This document shows positions 22,158 to 34,916 of a DNA stretch of 34,916 nucleotides, one piece after another. This stretch comes from a virus. The translations under genes and the position numbers were made by a program. The notes under the pieces are model-generated. The model ran no database searches. It saw only the letters and a program-made list of their open reading frames with translations, and had not been told where the DNA came from. The stretch covers positions 1-34,916 of the IMG/VR virus record IMGVR_UViG_3300005735_000011. The stretch is one strand, 5' to 3'. Every line of letters begins with the position of its first letter. Within the stretch, counting starts at the first letter, position 1.

Positions 22158-24074
22158 ATGGAAAATAGAGACGATATTACAAACTATGCTAGTTCTATGC
22201 TTGCTGGAAGTCGTAAAAGAAAAGACGATCAGTATAGAGCATTTAAAAATGATCGAGATCGAATGGCTTCAGAAGCACGTAAGCGTGAACGAAAGCAATT
22301 GCTTTATGGTTACGGTGCAAAAGCTCTGTTGTCTATTGGCAATACTATGGTTAGACAATCTACAGAAAATTTCTTAAACCAAGAAAAGTTATTGCAGAAT
22401 AATATTAAGTTTAAATCTGCGGTAAACGGAGCTACTGATCGTAATAACCAACGTCAAGAAGCTCTTTCTTACGAAGGTGGCGAAGCAGAATATTATCGGG
22501 CTAAAGCTGCGGCAGAGATTACAACTGCATTTAATAGAGCAATCCCCGACTCATATAGCGCAACTCAACGTGCTCAACTTCTTTACAACGAAAGCGTAGA
22601 GGCAGGTAAACAACTACAAAAACTTTATGCAGACTCTGCTGACCAAGACAGGCTATTAATAGAGCGTGTAGGTGAAGACGGAGCTGAGGCTTATAACAAA
22701 GCTTTAGTTGCTGGTAGAGGAACTGATATAGGCTCTACGCTTTATCGCAAGTTTAAAGGGTTGTTTAAGAAAGGTGGAGATCCTTTAGATAATAGTTTAA
22801 AAGAATCTGAAGAGCTTATGAACATTGCCGGAGGTGTTAAAGCCTATGGAGAGCTGCGAAGAGAAGGTTTATCTCCATTTAGATCTAAAGAAAAAGTAGC
22901 TGAGTGGACAGCAGCTGCTGATGGAATGCCTTTGCAGATTGAAAGCTCTAAACTTGTTGAAATAAAAAGTAGTTTTATTCCTGAGTTTGGTGACGGTAAG
23001 CCTGTAGCGACAACAAAAACTTTTAGAGAAATTAAATATAAAAATAATCCTGTTCCTAAATATATAGATTTACAAACTCAAAGTGAAGTGACATCTTTTG
23101 ATATTGCAAACGTAACAGCTGCTAGTATAGTTCTTAAAAACAACTCAACAGAAATAAAGCAACTTAAAGTAGCAACAGCTCAGAATTTACCTAAAGATGA
23201 TCTAGATGTTTTAGGTACATATAACAGTTTACTTGTTGAAGATGCTACTGATAAAGATAGAGTAATAGATGTTGCAGATAATCAATACGCTAGAATGTAC
23301 ATAACTGGACAGCATTTAAAATCTAGGTATGGTTTTAGAGCTAAGCAAGCTGAAGTGTTGGCAGCTAAGATGCACGTAATTAATACTAAAACGATGATAG
23401 ATACAAAGGGATGGGGGACAACTGCTAATAATGAAAATAATCTTTTAACAGATAAATATGGTTCTCATCCTATGGTAGCTTACATGGCTATATTAGATAT
23501 TAAAGAAAATAGTCCTGTGTCTGTTAGCTTTAGTCCTAAAACTAAAAAAGCTTTATTAACTGACTATGCTAAAAATATTTCGTTTTATGATTCTAGACTA
23601 AGCACTGAAGCTCAAAAAAATCTTCGTACTTTAATTGCAGAACGGCCAGAAGCTGCGATGGCGTTTGAGAATATTCTTAAAGGATCTGAAGAACCACCTA
23701 CAGTTCCAGAACCTGTTGTATCAACATCAACATCAACCACACCTGTAGCTGCTCCTAAAACATATACTGAAGATGAAATTAATAAAGCTTTGAAGTATCA
23801 CTTTAGAACAAACTCATCTAAACAGAAAGCTGCTTTGGCTGGAAACCTTGACCAAAAAACACAGATCTTTAATGCTGTGGGTGGACAAAGTATTTTAGAT
23901 TCACAGAATAAAAAGCAAGCAAGGACTGATAAACTTGTTAAAGCTTTTAAATCTGCTAGTCAAAAACAAAAAGCAATTAACGGTTTAAGTGCTACAGATA
24001 AATTAGTATACGATTCATTAAAATCAAAAGCTGAAAAAGAAAAATTCTTAGCTGATAAAAGTGGAGCTGTTTAA
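22158..24074 (+). CDS. Internal virion protein, helical
   Basis: A 638-residue, mostly helical protein. The N-terminus is strongly basic and arginine-rich (SRKRKDDQYRAFKNDRDRM, then ARKRERKQLLYGYG), suited to DNA or capsid-core contact. FKKGGDP occurs near residue 208, matching the aromatic-x-x-GG motif elsewhere in the window. A Pro/Thr/Ser linker (about 514-536) separates a C-terminal Lys-rich helical domain. Its stop overlaps the start of the giant downstream protein (TAATG), so the two are made together. Position and size fit a T7 gp15-like ejection protein, but this is inferred from context. Confidence 0.6.
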   Translation: MENRDDITNYASSMLAGSRKRKDDQYRAFKNDRDRMASEARKRERKQLLYGYGAKALLSIGNTMVRQSTENFLNQEKLLQNNIKFKSAVNGATDRNNQRQEALSYEGGEAEYYRAKAAAEITTAFNRAIPDSYSATQRAQLLYNESVEAGKQLQKLYADSADQDRLLIERVGEDGAEAYNKALVAGRGTDIGSTLYRKFKGLFKKGGDPLDNSLKESEELMNIAGGVKAYGELRREGLSPFRSKEKVAEWTAAADGMPLQIESSKLVEIKSSFIPEFGDGKPVATTKTFREIKYKNNPVPKYIDLQTQSEVTSFDIANVTAASIVLKNNSTEIKQLKVATAQNLPKDDLDVLGTYNSLLVEDATDKDRVIDVADNQYARMYITGQHLKSRYGFRAKQAEVLAAKMHVINTKTMIDTKGWGTTANNENNLLTDKYGSHPMVAYMAILDIKENSPVSVSFSPKTKKALLTDYAKNISFYDSRLSTEAQKNLRTLIAERPEAAMAFENILKGSEEPPTVPEPVVSTSTSTTPVAAPKTYTEDEINKALKYHFRTNSSKQKAALAGNLDQKTQIFNAVGGQSILDSQNKKQARTDKLVKAFKSASQKQKAINGLSATDKLVYDSLKSKAEKEKFLADKSGAV

Positions 24075-27000
24075 TGTCAGATACCTTATTAAGTAGGATG
24101 GAACAAATACATTCTCGAATGAGTAACTTCGAGGACGTATCCGATGAAACTTTATTAAGTGATTCAGAAATAGATCAAATATCATCTTATGAGTTAAACA
24201 ACATAGCTAACTTTGAAAACAATCCAGAGGTTGTTCAAGACTATGATACTTTAACATCTTACTTGGGAGAGAATCAAGACTTCTTAACTAAGATGATGGA
24301 CAGTGATCAAGGCCCCGCTGAAATGATGCGTGATGATTTTATGCGTATTACTTCAGTGGCTGGTAAAGCTAGTGCATTAAAAGATGCTCCTGAAGAGGTT
24401 AAGGCTGCTTATAGAAACCTTAGAGAAAAGTGGGAAAGTGCAGAAGTAACTGGAACTGATGAAGTGCTTGACGCTGTTAAAGACTACGGCATGGATGTAC
24501 TTGCAAACTTTGAAACTATCCCAACTGTATTATCTGTAATGTTTGGAGGTATTGGTGGTGCAGGTGCTAGTGCGTCAGTACGTACTGGTGCTAAAGTGGG
24601 TTTATCTAAAGCCTTACAGAAAGCAGCAGCTAACCCAGTTAAAAGCACAGCAGCTTATACAGGCGCTATTACAGGCGTTCAAGACTTAGCTATGCAAGAC
24701 CTTGAGATTGAAATCGGTGAGCGTAAAGATGGCATTGATTTAGGTCAGACAGCTACAGCGGCTGGTGTAGGTACAGTTATTGGCGGTGGTCTTGCATACG
24801 GTATGGGTAAAGTGGCAAGTAAATACGCATCAAAGCGTTTAGATAAAGATTTAAACGAAGTTCCGCAGCTTAGTGACAGTAAAGGTATAGAGCTATACAA
24901 CGAAGGTATAGAAGGCGAGTGGATTCCTGCAAGCGGTGAAGCTGTTATAAAAGCTACTAATCGTTTGTTAGAAGGCCCTGAAGGTGCTACAATTGATCTT
25001 AAAGATGTTAATAAAGCAGCAGATGCTTTTGTAGAAGAAGTCGGTGGTGGCGATGTAGCAAAGGAAGAATTTAAAACTATTGTTACTGGTGCATTAAAAT
25101 CAGGTGCAACAGGTGAAAAGATAAAAAATAAAATAGCTTTTGGAGTTTGGAAAACTGCAACAGATTTAACTGGCAATATGTTTGGTAAAAGTGCTGGCGT
25201 ACTTACTCCATACACTAAGTTTTCTAAAACAGCCAAGACACTTCAAACACGCCTTAGCCACGAGTTTGCTGAAGGCTTTGGTAAAACAAAAGAAAGAATT
25301 GGTATGGACTTTAGCGAAGCTGCCGCAGCTATTACAGGTGGTTTTAATCGTAAGTATAATGAAATCGTAGAGCCTTTAGCTTTAAACACTATTAAAGGTA
25401 ATCTATCTGATGAGGTTAATGATGCGTTAAATAAAGCTATTCGTGGCGACATGAGAGGTACTCCTGCAAATATCCAGAAAGCAGCTACAGAAATACGAGG
25501 CTTGTTTAAAAACATTGGCGATCAACTGTACTCAGAAGGTATTATAGCAAATAAAATAGATAACTATATACCCCGTATGTGGAATCGTAAAGCTATTGAG
25601 TCGGATCAAGATTCTTTTGATAATTTACTTCTTTCTTCTGGCGAAGCTAAAGACTTAACAGAGGCACGAAGAATTTCTGACAGTATGTTGGATATTGAAA
25701 ATCAATTAGACGGTGGTACAGGCGGACAGTTCTTTGCATCTAAACGTAAGTTTAAGTTTAAGAATGACGCAACATTTGTAAACTTTTTAAACACTGACTT
25801 AATGGATGTTACATTAGATTATAACTTCCAAGCTGGTAAAGCTCTAGCTAAGAAAAAAGTATTGTTAGCTACTAATGAGAAAGAGTTTATAAACAACTGG
25901 ATTAATCCTATTGTAAAAGAAATGAAAGCCTCTGGCAAGACTCTTGATAAGAAAGAGCGAGAGCAGATTAGAGAGCTATACCGTTCTGCTACTGGTGAAA
26001 ACATGGGGCGTTACGGATCTAAAATGCAAACGGTTGCTGACGGTTATACTTTAGGAACACGTTTAGCTTTGCTTCCTCTTGCAACTGTTGGTAGTTTAAC
26101 AGAGGTATTTATTAATATTGGTAAGTCTGGAGTTTTAAATTCTGTAAAGGGCTTTAAAGAAGCTTCTGAACTTAGCTTTAAAAAGGCTACAGGTGATCTC
26201 CACAGTGAACTTAAAAACCGTCACGGCTTAACGGCTGCTGAAGCTTTCCGTGAAATGAAAAGCTTTGGTATTGCAATGGAACAGGCACAGGCTCAAATCG
26301 GAAACCGTTTAGCTGGAGAAGATCTTGCTTCTGAAACTATGCAGAATGTAAGTAACAAGTTCTTCCGTATGAACTTCCTAGACCAGTGGACAAAGTTTGT
26401 TCAGACCGCTTCGTTTGCTAGTGGTAAAAATCTTATTCGAGAAAATTTAGATCTTATCGCAGCTCATGGTAATCAACCGCCTACTGCTAAGATAGAAACT
26501 CTTATAGGTGAATTAAACGAACTTAACATTGATTATAAAAAAGGTGTTGAGTGGGTAAATAAGGGAGCTAAAAATACAGATGCGTTTTATGATGAGATGT
26601 TAGGTGGAGCTGCACGATATACCAACTCTGTAATCTTACAGCCTTCTGCGATGTCAGGACTTAAACCTTTACTGCATTCAAACCCTAAGACTTCAATAGC
26701 TTTTCAGTTGTTGGGCTATCCCGCAGCTTTTACAAACACAGTTCTTAAAGGAGCTGCGAAGGCTATAACTAAAGATACAAAAAGGAACGCACCAAGGCTT
26801 GCATTAGCAGGTTTACTTATGACTGAAACAGCCCGCATGACTAATTACTTTAGAAGTGATGGTAAAAGCGAAAGAGATGTTACGCCTACAGAAGCTAGAT
26901 TAAGTGCTATTAAGCGTTGGGGTGGTAACGGTTTACTTTTTGACAACTTACAAAGAGCTTCAGATGCTGCAAAATATTCAGGCACAGTGTCTGGATATGC

Positions 27001-30000
27001 TACTGCACCCTTTGGCCCCATTGCTTCTGATGTTCTTGGTTTAGCTTATGGTAAGTACCATCAAGTTTTAGGTACAAAAGTTCCTTTCTTTGGAGCCGGT
27101 AGCACAATAGCAGGCCCTGAGAACATGCGTAAGTACCGAGACATGCTTCGTGAAAAAGATAAAGATTTAAAAGGTCTTATTCCAGAATTTGAATATGATA
27201 TTCAGCGCCAGCAATTTCTTAAAGGTGGTGAAGTAAAAGTACCTAATGCGCCTGCTGAACCTGACGAGCGTATAAATAAATATACTGGATTGCCATACAA
27301 CTATGAAGCCGGTTCTGCTTTTATGGATGAACTAGATCCTAAGAAAGTAGAGCGTCAAGGGTTTGCAATAGGTGGTGCTGTAGCTAAAAAGCTTTCTGGT
27401 TACATAGCAGAAACTATTAACGAGGCTACTGATGGTATTTTAGATCCTAAAGTAATAAACCAAGCCGCTAAAGATATTGAAGATACAGCAGGTTTATCTC
27501 AGGCTAAAAGTACACAAGCTTTTGATGAATCATACGATCCTGATTATGCTGACTTTGGAAGCGTTGACGCTTATCAAGTAGATGAAATGGGTGGTCAAGA
27601 AGCTGTAGAAGATTATATTGCAGTAACAGTAAAATCTATTTTAAGAGAAAAAGATCAGAAGATTAAACCTTTCTCTGAAGAAACCTTAGCTATTCAAAAG
27701 TCTGGTAAGTCTGAAACATATGGCGAAGACTTTCAGCGTTCACGAGGTTATACCGAAGAAGAGATAGATGACTTTAACTATCAAGCTGAGTTAGCTGAGG
27801 AGCTTGACCCTGATCAAACTATGTACATGGATATACAGTCAGCCCTCAATGAAGTTAGAGATGATAGTGTAGCACACATTAGTACCTTAGCTGATCCTGA
27901 AAAGCTAGAAGCTGTTAAACAGTTTGATGATGTTATAGACATCTTTGCTAGAAACGATAAGTTTGTTCCTGCTACTAATGTTACTACTGAAGGTAAAAAG
28001 AAAATCGTAGCTAATTACATAGCTAATAACTCGGACAATCCTGACTTAATCTCTTCTCTAAAGGCTATGCAGAAAGATGCACCTCAAAAAATGACAGGCC
28101 AAGATGCAGTAGATCTGCTTCCAGAAGATCAAAGACTTAAAAACCTTGACGACTTCTTAGGTTCTTCAAAGGAACAAGAGCCAATGTATAGAGGCATCTC
28201 AGACTTTGGAGAGAAAGACTTTGAAGTAGCGTTTGTTTCTCCTCGTGAAATGGGTGTACACGTAGGTACTAGAGGTCAAGCTCAGTACATTATGGCTAAG
28301 TCTCTTAATGATAATAGAGCTATGAATGAGTTAGCGATTCCTTCAACAGGACAAAACAAAGTTACAAATAAAGAGATGGATGAGTTCTTTAGTGATGAAG
28401 TAGCTCGTAGACAAGAAACCACAATGGAAGATGTTGACTTTGATAATATTACTCAAGAAGAGTTAGACTACATGGGTTCAATGGACTTAGCGCCATCTAG
28501 TCGTATGCCAAGTGTCAGTATGACAAAAGGGTTTATTAATGTTAAGAATCCTTTGGAGTTTGATACTGATGCTTCAAACTGGACAGCAGAAAACCTACTT
28601 ACTACTTCGTATAGTCAGCTGTATGATGCAATTAGAAACGGACTAGGCAAGAAGATCCCTAAGAAGTTTGAGGATCGTTTAAATGCTTTATCCGAAGAAG
28701 CTCTTGAGGTTCCTAAGATCCCTGACATCTTTGACAGCTCTAAGCAGATACTCGATACAAGCTTTAGGCATATTGCTTTGACTAAGAAGCTACAAGGTCT
28801 TTTAGAAGATATGGGTTTTGATTCTATTAAGTATCGAAACATGGTGGAGCCTTCAGTAACTGGCGATAAAGGAAACTCTTCTTATATTCTATTTCGCTCC
28901 GAGCAGTATAAGAATGTAAACGCTAGTAAGTTTGATCAACAAGACAAACGTATGATGTTTAATGAAGGCGGTCTTTTATACAATGTTAAAAAAGGGGAAA
29001 CCCTAACTAAGATTGCTGCGGAAAACAATACAGATGTACAAACACTTGTAGCTTTAAATAAAATTAAAGATGCAGATAAGATAAATGTAGATCAAGAAAT
29101 AATGTTGCCGCAGAAGAAAGTAGCAAATATTGATAGAATGTTATGGGCTACTAAATATAACGCTGAAGATAAGCCACTTGAAGAACTTCTTTCAAAGTAT
29201 GATGCTGCACAGAACATTGAAGTAACTGACACAGTAAAAAATGTAGCTAAATATGCTGCAAATAGTGGTGCGTTTTCTAATGAACTGATGGATATGGGTC
29301 TAACACCTGCTGAACTTGAGCAGGGACTAATTGACTATTCTAAGATAGAAAGCTCTGGAGGTCATCTATCTAAGTCAAAACAAGTTAGCTCAGGAAAAGC
29401 ACAAGGTTTATTCCAAGTTATTTATCCTTCAGCTAAAAGTGTTTTAAAGCAAGGACAGTTTGGCCCTAAGTCTGCGGCGGCTGCGGGTTATACATTAGAT
29501 GAACTTAATAGCATGAGTAAAGAAGAGTTAAGAAGCAAGTTATTGAATGATGATAAGCTTAATGCTTTGTTTGCTTCAGCTATTATAATTCAAAAATTAC
29601 AAACTCTTAAAACTAAAAAAGAACCTAGAGTTAAAAAGAATTTGGGAAGTCTTGTGTCTAAAGCAATTGCACCTAAAATGACTGAAGGGTTTTATAGTGC
29701 TTTAGAAAAGGCAGCATTAAACCTAAAACGTAAAGAAGGAACAGGTCAAGGATTTATTAATGATCTCAAGAAGGGTGAGAAGGTAACATCAGACGAGCTA
29801 GAATTTACAGGCGTTGCTGACAAACTTAAAGATGTTAAGAAAATTTCTAAAGAAGAAGTACAAGAACTTGTATCAAATTCTAAAATAGAATTAAATACAA
29901 TTAAAGGGCAAGTAGATGGAGATTTTGAAACTGAATACGATCAATACACTTTATCTGGCAAGCCTGAAAACTATAAAGAAATTTTAATTAATATTCCAGA

Positions 30001-31021
30001 AAACACAAACAATGAAAAGTTAAATTCCGTGAAGTTTGAAAATACTCATTGGAACAATGCATCAAGACAAGCTGATAAAGATCCAAAAAAAGTTATTGCA
30101 CATTTAAGAGTGTCAGATGTTTTTAGTGGTAAAGATCCAAATAAAAAAGCTTTATTAATTGAAGAAGTTCAATCTGATTATCATCAGGCAGGAAGTAAAA
30201 GCGGTTATGATGGCAGTGCTGTTTTTTATACTGAAGAACAAGCAGAAGAAATAGCAGATGCTTATAGAGATTTATTTTATAGTAAGTTTACAAAACGCTT
30301 TGCTAAAGACTATGACGATGCAGAAGACTTAATGGAAGAAGCTTATGACTTTGCTGAGGACACTAGGGCAGTAATAGAGGAGTTACTTACACTGGGTCTT
30401 GCTAAAGAAAAAACTGGCGGTTTTGTTGAAAAGTTTTCAAACTATAAAATTAAAAATTTAGAGTTAGAAGAGGAACTAGCGTCATATACAAATATATATA
30501 ATCCAAACTACGTTGATGATCCTGACAAAGCTAATGCTGTTTATTTAAAAATGAAAGAACTAGAGAAAGATTTTATCGAAGAATTAAAAGATTCAGACCC
30601 TAGTGTAGAAAGAGCTTATAAGAAGTATCTTAATGACGATGTAGAGGATACACCTGTTCCTGAAGCACCGTTTAAAAAGACTTGGCATAAGTTAAGCATA
30701 AACAAAGCTTTAATTGAAGCTGCTGAACAAGGGAAGGATGCCATTGCTTTGACTACAGGTAAGCAGCAAGCACGAAGATATACATCTTCTGGACTAGGAG
30801 ATCAAGAAGGTCTAGGTAAAAAATATGATGGTGCATATCTTAAACACTTAAAAGCTTTTGGTAAAAAGTATAATGAAGAGGTTTCAATAGAAGACGTATT
30901 TCTTAGTGGTGTTGGTTCTAGGGAAGAGCCTGTATACTTCTTAAACCTTACACAAGAAATGAAAGACGATATACTAAAAGGTCTTCCGCAGTTTGCTGAA
31001 GGTGGTTTAGTAGAAGAATAA
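24074..31021 (+). CDS. Giant multidomain virion protein: ART-like, LysM, lytic transglycosylase
   Basis: A 2315-residue protein, probably ejected with the DNA. Residues about 140-250 are hydrophobic and Gly/Ala-rich. About 350-1040 are helical with FFRMNFLDQWTKF and PFGPIASDVLGLAYGKYH, a podovirus ejection-protein style. About 1370-1615 resemble the ADP-ribosyltransferase-like domain of phage polyvalent proteins (YRG at 1372-1374, GVHVGT..QA around H1396, GFDSIKY at 1581-1587, SYILF). LysM spans about 1636-1680 (YNVKKGETLTKIAAENN). A lytic transglycosylase follows, with likely catalytic E1759 in KIESSGG and GKAQGLFQV (1774-1782). Residues about 1889-2305 are a conserved phage module (IEEVQSDYHQ at 2029-2038, APFKKTWHKL, TTGKQQARRY). 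F-x-x-GG motifs at 1048, 1097, 1629 and 2307 fall at module edges. Confidence 0.82.
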   Translation: MSDTLLSRMEQIHSRMSNFEDVSDETLLSDSEIDQISSYELNNIANFENNPEVVQDYDTLTSYLGENQDFLTKMMDSDQGPAEMMRDDFMRITSVAGKASALKDAPEEVKAAYRNLREKWESAEVTGTDEVLDAVKDYGMDVLANFETIPTVLSVMFGGIGGAGASASVRTGAKVGLSKALQKAAANPVKSTAAYTGAITGVQDLAMQDLEIEIGERKDGIDLGQTATAAGVGTVIGGGLAYGMGKVASKYASKRLDKDLNEVPQLSDSKGIELYNEGIEGEWIPASGEAVIKATNRLLEGPEGATIDLKDVNKAADAFVEEVGGGDVAKEEFKTIVTGALKSGATGEKIKNKIAFGVWKTATDLTGNMFGKSAGVLTPYTKFSKTAKTLQTRLSHEFAEGFGKTKERIGMDFSEAAAAITGGFNRKYNEIVEPLALNTIKGNLSDEVNDALNKAIRGDMRGTPANIQKAATEIRGLFKNIGDQLYSEGIIANKIDNYIPRMWNRKAIESDQDSFDNLLLSSGEAKDLTEARRISDSMLDIENQLDGGTGGQFFASKRKFKFKNDATFVNFLNTDLMDVTLDYNFQAGKALAKKKVLLATNEKEFINNWINPIVKEMKASGKTLDKKEREQIRELYRSATGENMGRYGSKMQTVADGYTLGTRLALLPLATVGSLTEVFINIGKSGVLNSVKGFKEASELSFKKATGDLHSELKNRHGLTAAEAFREMKSFGIAMEQAQAQIGNRLAGEDLASETMQNVSNKFFRMNFLDQWTKFVQTASFASGKNLIRENLDLIAAHGNQPPTAKIETLIGELNELNIDYKKGVEWVNKGAKNTDAFYDEMLGGAARYTNSVILQPSAMSGLKPLLHSNPKTSIAFQLLGYPAAFTNTVLKGAAKAITKDTKRNAPRLALAGLLMTETARMTNYFRSDGKSERDVTPTEARLSAIKRWGGNGLLFDNLQRASDAAKYSGTVSGYATAPFGPIASDVLGLAYGKYHQVLGTKVPFFGAGSTIAGPENMRKYRDMLREKDKDLKGLIPEFEYDIQRQQFLKGGEVKVPNAPAEPDERINKYTGLPYNYEAGSAFMDELDPKKVERQGFAIGGAVAKKLSGYIAETINEATDGILDPKVINQAAKDIEDTAGLSQAKSTQAFDESYDPDYADFGSVDAYQVDEMGGQEAVEDYIAVTVKSILREKDQKIKPFSEETLAIQKSGKSETYGEDFQRSRGYTEEEIDDFNYQAELAEELDPDQTMYMDIQSALNEVRDDSVAHISTLADPEKLEAVKQFDDVIDIFARNDKFVPATNVTTEGKKKIVANYIANNSDNPDLISSLKAMQKDAPQKMTGQDAVDLLPEDQRLKNLDDFLGSSKEQEPMYRGISDFGEKDFEVAFVSPREMGVHVGTRGQAQYIMAKSLNDNRAMNELAIPSTGQNKVTNKEMDEFFSDEVARRQETTMEDVDFDNITQEELDYMGSMDLAPSSRMPSVSMTKGFINVKNPLEFDTDASNWTAENLLTTSYSQLYDAIRNGLGKKIPKKFEDRLNALSEEALEVPKIPDIFDSSKQILDTSFRHIALTKKLQGLLEDMGFDSIKYRNMVEPSVTGDKGNSSYILFRSEQYKNVNASKFDQQDKRMMFNEGGLLYNVKKGETLTKIAAENNTDVQTLVALNKIKDADKINVDQEIMLPQKKVANIDRMLWATKYNAEDKPLEELLSKYDAAQNIEVTDTVKNVAKYAANSGAFSNELMDMGLTPAELEQGLIDYSKIESSGGHLSKSKQVSSGKAQGLFQVIYPSAKSVLKQGQFGPKSAAAAGYTLDELNSMSKEELRSKLLNDDKLNALFASAIIIQKLQTLKTKKEPRVKKNLGSLVSKAIAPKMTEGFYSALEKAALNLKRKEGTGQGFINDLKKGEKVTSDELEFTGVADKLKDVKKISKEEVQELVSNSKIELNTIKGQVDGDFETEYDQYTLSGKPENYKEILINIPENTNNEKLNSVKFENTHWNNASRQADKDPKKVIAHLRVSDVFSGKDPNKKALLIEEVQSDYHQAGSKSGYDGSAVFYTEEQAEEIADAYRDLFYSKFTKRFAKDYDDAEDLMEEAYDFAEDTRAVIEELLTLGLAKEKTGGFVEKFSNYKIKNLELEEELASYTNIYNPNYVDDPDKANAVYLKMKELEKDFIEELKDSDPSVERAYKKYLNDDVEDTPVPEAPFKKTWHKLSINKALIEAAEQGKDAIALTTGKQQARRYTSSGLGDQEGLGKKYDGAYLKHLKAFGKKYNEEVSIEDVFLSGVGSREEPVYFLNLTQEMKDDILKGLPQFAEGGLVEE

Positions 31022-31081: not shown

Positions 31082-31396
31082 ATGAACATAAATGAGCTAC
31101 CAATGGTACGTTTAACTTGGCAGGATGCACAGGATAGTGATGGGTGTTGGACTTCTATAGAAGATATTGTAGCACATGAGACAGCTACTTGTCAAGAGGT
31201 AGGGTGGCTAGTCCATCAAGATGACAGAAAAGTAATTGTAATGCGTTCAAGGATTGTTGAAGGTAATGAACTCAAGGAGGGTGGTGCTCACATTGCAATA
31301 CCTGCAAGTTGGGTAGTTAAAATAGAGGTACTACATACAGATGAAGAAGATAATGACAACGCTTTTAATTCTTATAAGTCCGTTCACGCAGGCTAG
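31082..31396 (+). CDS. Small conserved phage protein, unknown function
   Basis: A 104-residue protein with a ribosome binding site AGAGGTAAG before the ATG. Motifs such as VRLTWQDAQDSDGCW and EVGWLVHQDDRKVIVMRS form a compact beta-rich fold that I recall as a widespread small phage protein without assigned function. The C-terminus is acidic. Its last 56 bp overlap the next gene in a different frame. It opens the envelope/lysis block after the internal virion proteins, separated from them by 60 bp with no visible terminator. Confidence 0.7.
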   Translation: MNINELPMVRLTWQDAQDSDGCWTSIEDIVAHETATCQEVGWLVHQDDRKVIVMRSRIVEGNELKEGGAHIAIPASWVVKIEVLHTDEEDNDNAFNSYKSVHAG

Positions 31397-31904
31397 TGAA
31401 GCAAACGTAGGAGACTTTGGAACTAATCAGCAAGCAGAGACAATCACAACTACAACTGAAACTACAGTGAACCAAGAAGGGATGCCAGTAACTACAGCAG
31501 TAGCTCCTTCTACACCAACATACCAGACAGATACTTGTGTTGTTACGTCTGGTGCAGGGATGCAAACACTTCAGATAGGACTTAGTGCTTCAAGGATGAA
31601 GATAGATGAGAACTGCGAGCGTTTAAAGTTATCACGCCAGTTGTCCTCACTAGGTTTAAAGGTAGCAGCAACAAGTATTATGTGTCAAGACCCACGAGTT
31701 TGGTGGGCTATGAGAAACGCACAAACCCCATGTCCCATTAAAGGAAAAATAGGAGAAGAAGCCCTTGAATACTATAGCCAAAACCCTAAGTACGTCCCTG
31801 ATCAGCCTATCGTTGTCAACTCCACTAATTGCAAGCGACAACGACTTCGATATGACAGGGCTACAAAACGCCACAAGTACGATTACAAGTGTAATAACGA
31901 GTAA
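31341..31904 (+). CDS. Exported cysteine-containing protein of unknown function
   Basis: A 187-residue protein with a clear Sec-type signal peptide: two lysines, hydrophobic MTTLLILISPF, cleavage near TQASEA (about 16-21). The mature part begins with a Thr-rich linker, followed by a folded Cys-bearing region: DTCVVTSGAG, IDENCERLKLSRQL, IMCQDPRVWWAM, AQTPCPI, and near the end NSTNCKRQRLRYDR and YDYKC. Six spaced Cys suggest disulfides in the periplasm. The C..SG.G..., ENC.R, CQD and TPCP spacing looks familiar from phage lysis regions, but I know no function. It overlaps its upstream neighbour by 56 bp and its downstream neighbour by 140 bp, each in a different frame. Confidence 0.7.
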   Translation: MKKIMTTLLILISPFTQASEANVGDFGTNQQAETITTTTETTVNQEGMPVTTAVAPSTPTYQTDTCVVTSGAGMQTLQIGLSASRMKIDENCERLKLSRQLSSLGLKVAATSIMCQDPRVWWAMRNAQTPCPIKGKIGEEALEYYSQNPKYVPDQPIVVNSTNCKRQRLRYDRATKRHKYDYKCNNE

Positions 31905-32556
31905 CATTCAAGAGTATATTCAATGGACTCAAGAGTCTATGCTGGACGGTAACACAATCATTTACAACAACGATGACGGAACTAGCTACGAATTGACACC
32001 TGCACAGATGGATGTGTTTAACCAAGCGTATGCTGATGGATTAGTGAACAGCACTCCAGAGGCTTTGACAGCCGTCCTGCTTAACGATATGATTGACCTA
32101 GAGCAAGACACCTACGAGGGTGAGAAAGAGACTCTAATCGAAGCAGCAAGCGAAATAGCAGCAGTAACTAACATAGCTGAGATGCTTGTGGAAGGTGATC
32201 AACAAACTAAGATTAATGCTGAAGCCTACGCTACTGAGAATGACTTGAGAGCTATTAAAGAATCAAGCCGCCAGAAGTTTAACACAAGCATTAACGGTAT
32301 GTTAGAAGCAAGTATGACAAAGAATATGATTGAGGGCTATGCACAAGACTCGTTTGTTATCGATACAATAGCTTCGTCATTCATGGCTACAAATACAGTA
32401 ATGGATTTTTTTACAAACACTGCTGTATCAATTGATAGTTTAAATGTACGACAACTTAATTTAGATTGGAACCAACATAATGTAGGCGTAGAAAGTGAAA
32501 TGTATTTCCTTTACTCTGCTGAAGCCCAACAGACTTTGGAGATTATACCACGATGA
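31765..32556 (+). CDS. Exported helical protein, start nested in upstream gene
   Basis: A 263-residue protein using TTG at 31765. This start is chosen because AGGAG at 31751-31755 lies 9 nt upstream and because it gives a signal peptide (MNTIAKTLSTSLISLSLSTP, cleavage near LIAS, about 20-24). The next in-frame ATG (residue 30) lacks both. The mature protein is helical and polar (EGEKETLIEAASEIAAVTNI, FNTSINGMLEASMTKNM) without Cys, so it is likely periplasmic. The whole signal peptide lies in the 140-bp overlap with the previous gene. Its TGA overlaps the next ATG (ATGA). The role is unknown; context suggests envelope interaction or lysis. Confidence 0.65.
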   Translation: MNTIAKTLSTSLISLSLSTPLIASDNDFDMTGLQNATSTITSVITSNIQEYIQWTQESMLDGNTIIYNNDDGTSYELTPAQMDVFNQAYADGLVNSTPEALTAVLLNDMIDLEQDTYEGEKETLIEAASEIAAVTNIAEMLVEGDQQTKINAEAYATENDLRAIKESSRQKFNTSINGMLEASMTKNMIEGYAQDSFVIDTIASSFMATNTVMDFFTNTAVSIDSLNVRQLNLDWNQHNVGVESEMYFLYSAEAQQTLEIIPR

Positions 32557-32936
32557 AACCAGAACAAGTCGCACTATGGATAGGCATCGCTAGTTCAATC
32601 GGCGGTGCAGCAGTAGGATACGGAACACTAACAGAAAAAGTAGCAGCCTTAGAAGCTTCTACAGATAGCACATTACTAGAGTCACGTTTAACTAAACTAG
32701 AAGTGAGGATTGAAGATAATGATATATCACATATTGGCACTGAAATACAAGAGCTGCGTGGACAAATTGAAAACACAGCTGACAAAGTTTCAGGGATTGT
32801 TATCCCAAGCACAAGCGAAATTGAATCAGACATTCGAGTCCTTGAAACAGAAGTTGAAGCAATTGAAGGACGACTTGAAAAGCTCGGTTCAAAAGTTGAG
32901 AAAATAACTAGCAAGAAATCTAATCCTTTACTATAG
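32553..32936 (+). CDS. Candidate inner-membrane spanin (i-spanin)
   Basis: A 127-residue protein with one N-terminal hydrophobic span (about 8-27, ALWIGIASSIGGAAVGYGTL) followed by an almost continuous coiled coil: LTEKVAALEAS, LESRLTKLEVRIED, IQELRGQIENTADKV and LETEVEAIEGRLEKLGSKVE show heptad spacing of Leu/Ile/Val. One membrane anchor plus a periplasmic coiled coil is the i-spanin layout, the partner that connects to an outer-membrane lipoprotein to fuse membranes at lysis. It begins by an ATGA overlap, and the next gene harbours a nested lipoprotein ORF. Spanins share topology rather than sequence, so the call is structural. Confidence 0.55.
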   Translation: MKPEQVALWIGIASSIGGAAVGYGTLTEKVAALEASTDSTLLESRLTKLEVRIEDNDISHIGTEIQELRGQIENTADKVSGIVIPSTSEIESDIRVLETEVEAIEGRLEKLGSKVEKITSKKSNPLL

Positions 32937-32945
32937 AGGTTTAAT

Positions 32946-33434
32946 ATGTTTGGATTAATTACAATGCTTCTATCAACCCTTGGCGCTACAGGCATGGGTT
33001 CGATGTTAAAGATCCTTGGTGGGGCTGTACAGGCTCGTAACGAAGCCAAGGAAGCAGAGGCTAAACGAGAACTAATTCGAGATATGCAAATGAAGAATGC
33101 TGATCTTGAGTTTCAAAAGGCTATATTTGGAGATGCAAGCGATGACCCAGAAGCAACTATATTTACCCGTACTACTCGTAGGATTATTGCTCTTATCGGG
33201 ATGCTCAACTTTGCCACAATTTCAATTCTCTGTACCATCTACCCAACAGTCGAGCTTGTTACCTTCATCCCACCAGAGCAAACAAAAGAAATCAGCATCT
33301 TGTGGGGACTCTATAAGATGCCAATCGAACAAGGGATTACTACAGCCATCACTACTGGACATATATCTCTTGTCTCAATCACCACTCTGGGAGCTATAAT
33401 AGGTTTCTATTTTACACCGGCAGGAAAGAGGTAA
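32946..33434 (+). CDS. 3TM holin-like membrane protein
   Basis: A 162-residue protein with an N-terminal hydrophobic segment (LITMLLSTLGATGMGSML, about 4-21). A charged helix follows (ARNEAKEAEAKRELIRDMQM), then RTTRRIIALIGMLNFATISI running into LCTIYPTVELV (about 76-105) and a C-terminal span (ISLVSITTLGAIIGFYF, about 140-156) before TPAGKR. This arrangement fits the 'holin of three TMs' group known from gene-transfer agents and many phages. The ribosome binding site AGAGG is well placed. It sits after the i-spanin candidate, and a lipoprotein ORF lies inside its coding region in the +1 frame. It would be a second holin besides the gene at 15955. Confidence 0.6.
   Translation: MFGLITMLLSTLGATGMGSMLKILGGAVQARNEAKEAEAKRELIRDMQMKNADLEFQKAIFGDASDDPEATIFTRTTRRIIALIGMLNFATISILCTIYPTVELVTFIPPEQTKEISILWGLYKMPIEQGITTAITTGHISLVSITTLGAIIGFYFTPAGKR
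33142..33399 (+). CDS. Candidate nested outer-membrane spanin lipoprotein (Rz1-like)
   Basis: This 85-codon ORF lies wholly inside the holin-like gene, in its +1 frame. It starts with MTQKQ, has a hydrophobic core LYLPVLLVGLLLL and a textbook lipobox LSGC with Cys21. GGAG at 33129-33132 is 9 nt before its ATG. The mature chain of about 65 residues is Ser/Gln-rich with scattered Pro (STLPQFQFSVPS, LLPSS, LQPS, QSPLW), like Rz1-type o-spanins, whose genes are classically nested in the +1 frame of another lysis gene. In lambda the host gene is the i-spanin; here the i-spanin candidate is the gene immediately upstream. It may be chance, since shifted membrane-span codons also tend to be hydrophobic, but start, binding site and lipobox together argue against that. 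Confidence 0.5.
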   Translation: MTQKQLYLPVLLVGLLLLSGCSTLPQFQFSVPSTQQSSLLPSSHQSKQKKSASCGDSIRCQSNKGLLQPSLLDIYLLSQSPLWEL

Positions 33435-33437
33435 ACA

Positions 33438-33629
33438 ATGGCAGCAGCTAAGAAAAAAACTAAATCAAAAGTAAATGAGGCAGGTAACTACACTAAGCCT
33501 ACTATGCGTAAAAGATTGTTCAATAAAATCAAAGCGGGTACTAAGGGCGGTAAAGCTGGACAATGGTCTGCTAGAAAGGCTCAGATGCTTGCTAAAGAAT
33601 ATAAAGCAGCAGGAGGAGGTTACAAGTAA
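33438..33629 (+). CDS. Small basic conserved phage protein
   Basis: A 63-residue, strongly basic protein: AAAKKKTKSKVNEAGNYTKP, MRKRLFNKIKAG, KGGKAGQWSARKAQMLAKEY, ending KAAGGGYK. I recognise the AGNYTKPTMRKRLF...QWSARKAQ pattern as a widespread small phage/viral protein without known function. Two adjacent basic genes share this style (cf. the DUF5872 group). GAGG lies 7 nt before ATG. Its last codons contain GGAGGAGG, the ribosome binding site of the next gene, which starts within its stop codon (TAATG). Charge suggests nucleic-acid binding; this is inference. Confidence 0.75.
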   Translation: MAAAKKKTKSKVNEAGNYTKPTMRKRLFNKIKAGTKGGKAGQWSARKAQMLAKEYKAAGGGYK

Positions 33630-33883
33630 TGCCAATGAAGAAGTCACAGAAGTCTTTGAAGAAGTGGACTAAAGAAGAATGGGGTACTAAGTCTGGTAAG
33701 CCAAGCACTCAAGGCAAGAAGGCTACAGGTGAAAGGTATTTACCTAAGAAGGCTAGACAGTCTCTAAGCTCTAAGGAGTATGCTGCAACGTCAGCTAAGA
33801 AACGTAAAGATACTAAAGCAGGTAAGCAGCACAGTAAACAGCCTGCAAAGATTGCAAAGAAAACAGCGAGGCATAGAAAATAA
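33629..33883 (+). CDS. Small basic conserved phage protein (DUF5872-like)
   Basis: An 84-residue protein, about one third Lys or Arg: KKWTKEEWGTKSGKPS, RYLPKKARQSLSSKEYAA, RKDTKAGKQHSKQPAKIAKK. The W-x-x-E-x-W-x-T-x-S-G-K-P-S and RYLP-x-x-A features recur in small proteins of phages and larger DNA viruses that I recall under DUF5872, with unknown function. It has the strongest ribosome binding site in this block (GGAGGAGG, spacing about 8) and overlaps both neighbours by one base, so the three genes are coupled. Packaging, DNA condensation or virion nucleoprotein are possible roles, none proven. Confidence 0.75.
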   Translation: MPMKKSQKSLKKWTKEEWGTKSGKPSTQGKKATGERYLPKKARQSLSSKEYAATSAKKRKDTKAGKQHSKQPAKIAKKTARHRK

Positions 33884-34170
33884 TGGCTAAAGAAAAAGAT
33901 CCACGTTTAGCAAGAGCAGGTGTATCAGGGTTCAATAAACCTAAGAGAACCCCTTCACACAAAACTAAATCACATGTTGTAGTAGCAAAGCAGGGTGATA
34001 AAATAAAAACAATACGCTTTGGACAACAAGGTGTAAAAGGTGCAGGTAAAAACCCGACATCTGCTAAGGATAAAGCCCGTAAGAAATCTTACTATGCAAG
34101 ACATAATGCACAAGACTCTAAACCTAGCAAGCTGTCAGCTCGTTACTGGTCACACAAAGTTAAATGGTAG
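33883..34170 (+). CDS. Small basic conserved phage protein
   Basis: A 95-residue basic protein, last gene of the rightward block. It contains KRTPSHKTKSHVVVAKQGDK, TIRFGQQGVKGAGKNP, KARKKSYYARHNAQDSKPSK and ends SARYWSHKVKW. The KTIRFGQQGV...KAR(K/R)KSYYARH motif is familiar from a widespread small phage/viral protein of unknown function. It starts inside the TAA of the previous gene. Its stop lies inside the end of an opposite-strand gene (11-bp convergent overlap), and no terminator hairpin is visible between them. Confidence 0.75.
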   Translation: MAKEKDPRLARAGVSGFNKPKRTPSHKTKSHVVVAKQGDKIKTIRFGQQGVKGAGKNPTSAKDKARKKSYYARHNAQDSKPSKLSARYWSHKVKW

Positions 34171-34390: not shown

Positions 34391-34539
34391 AATACACAAC
34401 TACCAAGCATGGATTTGTAAACAATAATAAAAAAACAAGCCATCAAAGTATTAGCTCCCCAAAACCAAGCAAACATTTCAAAGGTATCTTTATTATCTTT
34501 AATGAATGTCTTGAGTTTTAGTTTCTTAGATTTTGTCAT
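34387..34539 (-). CDS. 50-residue single-span membrane protein
   Basis: Found by reading the minus strand; it is under the 60-residue cutoff. It starts at ATG 34539, overlapping the ribonucleotide reductase stop (ATGA), and its TGA overlaps the next ATG the same way. Sequence features: basic, Lys-rich N-terminus (MTKSKKLKLKTFIKDNK), aromatic FAWFW and one hydrophobic segment (LMACFFIIVYKSML), giving an N-in, single-pass topology by the positive-inside rule. Unrecognised. The tight double coupling is the main evidence that it is real. Confidence 0.65.
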   Translation of the reverse strand: MTKSKKLKLKTFIKDNKDTFEMFAWFWGANTLMACFFIIVYKSMLGSCVL

Positions 34540-34916
34540 ATCTCACACTGCCCCGCTACACAAGCAAGCTCTTGCGTTCCTGTAGTTGTATCTTCAGTTT
34601 CAAACTTACCCAGATCATCCCAGTTAATAGACGTTGGCATCTTGGCTAAGGCTTCTTTGTACGCTTCAGGTGTAATAGCTGTATATGGTGCTTGCTTGTA
34701 TACATGATCTGTACGAGGCAAGAAGCTAATCCCTGAACAACTATCCAGTCGATCCCACAGCCATTGACCTGCTGCTAGGAACTCCTCATCTGAGTAGTAG
34801 ATAGTTACACTTGGTTTGTGCTCACACCAATGGTTCTGATAAATTTCCCACAAGTCTAGTTGTGTCTGCACATTAAGTGAGTCAACGCTTGTAGATCCAG
34901 TAGGAGCTTTGATAGG
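34536..34916 (-). CDS. Adenosylcobalamin-dependent (class II) ribonucleotide reductase, C-terminal part
   Basis: Partial gene; it runs in from beyond the right end of the window, with 126 codons visible. The enzyme makes deoxynucleotides for phage DNA synthesis using coenzyme B12. Diagnostic segments are YQNHWCEHKPSVTIYY, LWDRLDSCSGISFLPR, DHVYKQAPYTAITPEAYKEA and the C-terminal ACVAGQCEI. The last has a C-x4-C pair like the mobile redox cysteines that re-reduce the active site. The pattern matches monomeric class II ribonucleoside-triphosphate reductases found in many marine phages. The reading frame is open through the window edge, and GTG 34871 is only an internal codon. The stop overlaps the next gene (ATGA). 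Confidence 0.88.
   Translation of the reverse strand, partial: PIKAPTGSTSVDSLNVQTQLDLWEIYQNHWCEHKPSVTIYYSDEEFLAAGQWLWDRLDSCSGISFLPRTDHVYKQAPYTAITPEAYKEALAKMPTSINWDDLGKFETEDTTTGTQELACVAGQCEI

Follow-up and report, generated by a model that had tools for sequence, protein, structure and literature searches.

A lipoprotein gene nested in a holin-like gene of uncultured marine phages as a candidate o-spanin

Spanin architectures have been classed as embedded, overlapped or separated, in each case by reference to the i-spanin gene, and embedded o-spanins have been described only within i-spanin genes, most of them starting at 0.4–0.5 and ending at 0.9–1 of the containing gene (PMC6139136). In both lambda Rz/Rz1 and T7 gp18.5/gp18.7, a small lipoprotein of the outer-membrane type lies wholly inside a membrane-protein gene, at approximately 0.4–0.9 of its length and often in the +1 frame, and is the sole or one of very few lipoprotein candidates of its genome. 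The locus analysed here resembles these pairs in all of these respects, but its containing gene encodes a holin-like protein with three transmembrane segments (3TM) and not one of the i-spanin plan, and an i-spanin does not constantly accompany it; no sequence similarity of the nested system to either pair was found. As in the separated spanins of the T4 type, the o-spanin gene does not overlap the i-spanin gene (PMC6139136), though in T4 it stands alone while the present candidate shares its DNA with a third gene, in which it is overprinted. The 3TM protein shares its three hydrophobic stretches and positive C-terminal tail with GTA_holin_3TM (PF11351) and class I holins, from which it differs by a charged segment of approximately 55 residues between helices 1 and 2 and by the nested gene. 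A remote homologue, gp70 of phage CRP-7, has similar small basic genes nearby but no nested lipoprotein. In the literature searched, which was mostly open-access, no o-spanin nested in a holin gene or in any other gene than that of an i-spanin was found, and the arrangement is apparently a variant not previously described.

The lysis genes of these uncultured marine phages are mostly unrecognised. The pair of a holin-like gene and a lipoprotein gene overprinted in it, which is kept over deep divergence, supplies an o-spanin candidate for phages that would otherwise be scored as spanin-free. Ordinary gene calling would overlook the nested gene. The pair is also a clear example of overprinting, in which the lipobox can be seen to shift and a remote homologue is without the second gene.

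The nested frame and its containing gene

The features considered here lie near the 3' end of the window, the whole stretch of 34,916 nucleotides that was analysed:

32553–32936, plus strand: gene for a 127-aa protein, a possible but not constant i-spanin, with a weak N-terminal TM segment (residues 6–24, hydropathy 1.43) followed by a coiled coil
32946–33434, plus strand: host gene, encoding a 162-aa holin-like inner-membrane protein (three hydrophobic stretches; remote similarity to CRP-7 gp70; PF11351 below cut-off)
33129–33132, plus strand: GGAG, likely ribosome binding site of the nested gene (sequence; conservation in the group)
33142–33399, plus strand: nested gene for an 85-aa lipoprotein precursor, candidate o-spanin (open frame and lipobox in both clades; reduced synonymous variation)
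33142–33204, plus strand: predicted lipoprotein signal peptide with the lipobox LSGC, Cys21 codon at 33202–33204 (sequence; conserved columns)
33202–33396, plus strand: predicted mature lipoprotein, 65 residues counted from the lipidated Cys, rich in Ser, Pro and Gln (composition against the recoded null)

The nested ORF occupies the +1 frame of the host ORF (32946–33434), running from an ATG at 33142 to a stop that ends at 33399. Its 85-residue product begins MTQKQLYLPVLLVGLLLLSGC, followed by STLPQFQF..., with the Cys as residue 21. The original prediction had described an ATG, a GGAG at a distance of nine bases, an LSGC lipobox and a tail rich in Ser, Gln and Pro, all of which were found in the sequence, although the tail is more correctly termed Ser/Pro/Gln/Leu-rich. 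The GGAG, a likely ribosome binding site for the nested ORF, is kept in the window-type group as GGAGA(T/C) or GGGGA. Since the nested frame is also open further 5', with its longest ATG start at 33097 and a second ATG at 33133, the start at 33142 is likely but unproven.

In the host protein, the hydrophobic stretches cover residues 3–21, 80–98 and 140–158, and the C-terminus is positively charged. The best match to GTA_holin_3TM reached 15.6 bits against a cut-off of 24.8 (E 0.024–0.041), and in none of the ten genomes was the curated cut-off reached. The designation as holin-like, which had been proposed originally, is therefore one of topology only and does not extend to membership of the Pfam family. 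Family searches gave no i-spanin match, a PDB sequence search gave no match, and tblastn against isolate phages gave none at E 0.01. Looser searches returned two remote relatives, gp70 of the Roseobacter phage CRP-7 (hhalign probability 96%) and a protein of Vibrio phage 2.275.O, neither of which has an open +1 frame; that of gp70 is full of stops, so the nested gene is no necessary property of the protein family. The AlphaFold model of the host protein is weak (pLDDT 62.6), and fold searches with it were uninformative.

Conservation and selection in two clades

A scan of IMG/VR yielded 80 homologous loci of 65–100% identity, with more from later scans, and the test set for clade A, to which the window belongs, consisted of 37 diverse sequences homologous to the 3TM gene, of less than 92% nucleotide identity. 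One alignment (A2), in which the row for L042 is out of frame, was left aside. As a null, host codons were re-drawn synonymously with the phages' own usage while the host protein was kept fixed. The +1 frame is open in all 37 sequences (0.01 expected), and all 37 carry the lipobox (2.0 expected). When the host gene of the window was itself recoded in 4000 trials, the +1 frame was open in about 0.1% of them, and an open frame, a lipobox and a hydrophobic core never occurred jointly. In the first IMG/VR set, the +1 frame is open across the signal and most of the tail in 69 of 69 distinct coding sequences. Across all 78 representatives the +1 stretch is free of stops, the +2 frame of the same stretch having 111 and 29.

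The Cys alone is weak evidence, because it arises almost inevitably where the host protein has Met before Leu or Cys. Throughout the 69 sequences the host Gly is encoded by GGG or GGC, which makes the residue at −1 Gly or Ala; GGG makes up 35 of the 712 Gly codons (5%) in the long frames of the window. The weight is carried by the flanking residues of the lipobox, the open frame and the hydrophobic core rather than by the Cys.

The second clade, clade B, comprises T7-like phages in which the host protein is 37% identical and its gene sits between scaffold and capsid. Its first contig came from a binned marine gammaproteobacterium, and the nested lipoprotein is present there. A scan for this clade found 197 related stretches, from which 80 loci were kept, and the +1 frame is open in 67 of 67 distinct sequences. 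Among the representatives, recoding predicted 0.08 open frames and 0.47 lipoboxes, while 27 and 26, respectively, of the 27 have them. One group has SLEW or SSEW at the ancestral position, with the lipobox LGGC six residues upstream of it; in another, LVGC occupies this upstream position, and other sequences are intermediates with both lipobox positions. The upstream lipobox was found wherever the ancestral Cys context is lost, with the exception of one group; in group L199, only a weak motif resembling LHAGC is present, which falls below the pattern. Without a protein, it would be difficult to account for a lipobox that changes position while the signal persists.

Retention of the +1 frame and lipobox among homologues, proposed beforehand as a check on the nested gene, thus extends over two deeply separated clades. 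The start proved more variable: an ATG lies 15–35 codons 5' of the Cys in most representatives (32 of 50 in clade A, 26 of 27 in clade B), but elsewhere it is replaced by GTG or TTG, and one of the 77 has no start.

Reduced synonymous variation, a further check that had been suggested, was seen only across the overlap, and in both clades. In clade A, the ratio of observed to expected pairwise synonymous difference is 0.90 5' of the overlap, 0.69 within it and 0.95 3' of it, with a minimum of 0.35 at the lipobox. Column tests confine the reduction to the overlap (p = 3.6e-7 in clade A and 4e-6 in clade B), values to be taken as guides because the columns are not fully independent. Host codons 77, 82, 83 and 87, in the signal and lipobox stretch, are among the most constrained synonymous columns. 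The host third base in the hydrophobic core is T in 62% (clade A) and 55% (clade B) of cases, compared to 28% outside the overlap in clade A; such a T becomes the second base of the nested codon and gives a hydrophobic residue. In the tail it is C in 43% and 37% of cases, compared to 16% and 21% outside the overlap, which gives Ser, Pro, Thr and Ala in the nested frame. The clade A tail accordingly contains 24% Ser and 10% Pro, where the recoded sequences lead one to expect 6% and 3%; a composition so far from the null indicates that it is itself selected and no accident of the frame. On these sequence patterns, 33142–33399 truly encodes a protein, in the +1 frame of the 3TM gene, and this product is almost certainly a lipoprotein.

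A candidate o-spanin and its possible partners

Lipoproteins were sought by a six-frame scan, which in the controls returned Rz1 and Bor and nothing else from lambda, and only gp18.7 from T7; the thresholds had been loosened after a stricter version missed lambda Rz1, so the scan is tuned on that control. The nested ORF is the sole candidate in the window, as well as in four other genomes (G001, G005, G011 and G013). In G009, the nested ORF escapes the scan, since with a standard start its n-region does not satisfy the charge rule, and a SleB-like hydrolase with a lipobox is reported instead, while in G004 the scan misses the shifted form of the lipobox and gives one other candidate. The same scan found no lipoprotein in the remote relatives CRP-7 and HTVC103P (most of the latter), and a spanin is therefore not obligatory in such phages. 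The residue at +2 is S, V, A, L, Q or P and never Asp in all 76 lipobox-bearing representatives, so sorting to the outer membrane is predicted by a rule from E. coli that is assumed to hold for the host bacterium. The mature part mostly comprises 49–84 residues across the representatives and is less Pro-rich than lambda Rz1. Searches of Pfam, PHROGs and NCBIfam with the nested protein gave nothing above noise. The SleB-like cell-wall hydrolase near the module in G009 (46982–46554, minus strand; locus L247) starts MKIILAWLVMMAAIISCKSCEG, which raises the possibility that export or lipidation applies to the endolysin as well.

Taken together, the predicted sorting, the size, the tail composition, the status as unique candidate, the position of the overlap (0.40–0.93 of the host gene length) and the holin-like host make an o-spanin the best reading of the nested lipoprotein, and a fairly likely one. 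A SleB-like hydrolase (PF07486) a few hundred bases away in other phages counts in the same direction. Counting against it are that no i-spanin constantly accompanies the module, that the clade B gene lies outside any lysis cassette, between scaffold and capsid, and that the host protein falls below the Pfam holin cut-off and the nested protein matches no family. The variable start codons and the empty scans of CRP-7 and HTVC103P weigh on the same side. Of the Rz1-type o-spanin in a 3TM gene put forward by the original prediction, the conserved nested lipoprotein gene is well founded, whereas the o-spanin role is inferred.

Late in infection, the nested frame would probably be translated off the mRNA of the holin-like protein via its own ribosome binding site, giving a small lipoprotein with a Sec signal, a lipobox, a lipidated Cys and a predicted destination in the outer membrane. 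As an Rz1-like outer-membrane subunit it would pair with an inner-membrane protein and disrupt the outer membrane after the action of holin and endolysin. The inner partner may be a nearby TM-plus-coiled-coil protein such as that encoded at 32553–32936, or the host protein itself, a candidate to be taken seriously.

The order in the window is a large virion protein with similarity to lytic transglycosylases, two signal-peptide proteins, the 127-aa gene and then the module. The 127-aa gene is absent beside the module in three loci (L003, L008 and L022) whose host proteins are 93–95% identical to that of the window, so this neighbour is no fixed partner, and a role as obligatory i-spanin is ruled out. 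A homologue was found in one of 15 other contigs, which may be incomplete, so that a phage may have the gene although its contig lacks it. The proposal that the upstream gene is the matching i-spanin, packing pore and both spanins into 880 bp, is hence unsupported as a general arrangement, the module also occurring beside unrelated genes. In L031 and L123 the PF07486 hydrolase precedes it by a few hundred bases; elsewhere it lies beside proteins that to the eye resemble PAAR proteins (L041 and L137), next to a 94-aa TM protein in L074 and L079, and within the T7-like morphogenesis region in clade B. Differing neighbourhoods of the pair were observed in L027, L031, L041, L074, L123, L137 and L154. 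Judging from these contexts, the host and nested genes apparently form a mobile unit of approximately 490 bp, which would represent a compact mobile lysis module. As a whole, this account of a nested lipoprotein gene, a probable o-spanin and a compact mobile lysis module is reasonably probable.

A more sceptical reading is that there is no gene, and that the open frame and the Cys result incidentally from the conservation of a hydrophobic host protein or from constraints on the RNA or the codons. The Cys does follow near-automatically from host Met-Leu or Met-Cys codons, but the null with the host protein fixed still gives only 0.01 open frames per 37, the lipobox changes position in clade B, and the switch of the third base from T to C matches the needs of a signal peptide followed by a Ser/Pro tail, which makes this reading extremely improbable; the recoding nulls of both clades rule out a chance by-product of the host protein. 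The product could also be a genuine outer-membrane lipoprotein whose task is not lysis but, for example, superinfection exclusion or a modification of the envelope. A spanin is not defined by a lipobox and outer-membrane sorting alone, lambda Bor is an example of a phage lipoprotein with a different role, the nested protein has a very weak match to Cor (E 0.24), and the T7-like clade carries the gene in its morphogenesis region. Exclusion lipoproteins usually vary with the receptor, however, and the nested gene persists across distant phages, is confined to the holin-like gene on several phage backbones, in some of them near a cell-wall hydrolase, and encodes a spanin-like Ser/Pro-rich tail, so a non-lysis task appears improbable.

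The o-spanin reading itself leaves room for the 3TM host protein as the inner-membrane partner, in a two-protein embedded spanin whose polytopic inner subunit may double as the holin. The host gene is the only one that always accompanies the nested gene, although such co-occurrence proves no interaction because nesting forces it; furthermore, a constant i-spanin neighbour is absent, and the overlap at 0.40–0.93 has the geometry of canonical embedded pairs (PMC6139136). In the weak structure model, a segment of approximately 34 residues between helices 2 and 3 would be periplasmic. In contrast, the host protein does not follow the i-spanin plan of one N-terminal TM segment with a coiled coil in the periplasm, the TRR at the end of the charged stretch preceding helix 2 suggests that this stretch is cytoplasmic, and the low pLDDT of 62.6 tells against relying on the model. 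Such a self-contained pair of host and nested proteins is unlikely, if somewhat less improbable than a non-lysis task. In its most far-reaching form, which is quite unlikely, the cartridge of approximately 490 bp would be a complete two-frame membrane-disruption device, in which a 3TM protein serving as holin and inner spanin subunit is combined with its lipoprotein partner, and which has spread through unrelated marine phages including a T7-like capsid operon.

Other genes were observed around the module in the window. The 2315-aa virion protein (24074–31021) has lytic-transglycosylase and LysM-like parts (PHROG 7348, E 3e-300). It is followed by two overlapping ORFs of 187 and 263 aa (31341–32556), each with a Sec-type signal peptide at its start and predicted to be secreted, the second of which is conserved in relatives. 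Downstream of the module, three consecutive small and very basic ORFs (33438–34170) correspond to PHROGs 17747, 14910 and 7595, which have no assigned function, and ORFs of this kind are also found near the host homologue in CRP-7. At 34536–34916, on the minus strand, the C-terminal part of a ribonucleotide reductase (PHROG 367) runs off the window.
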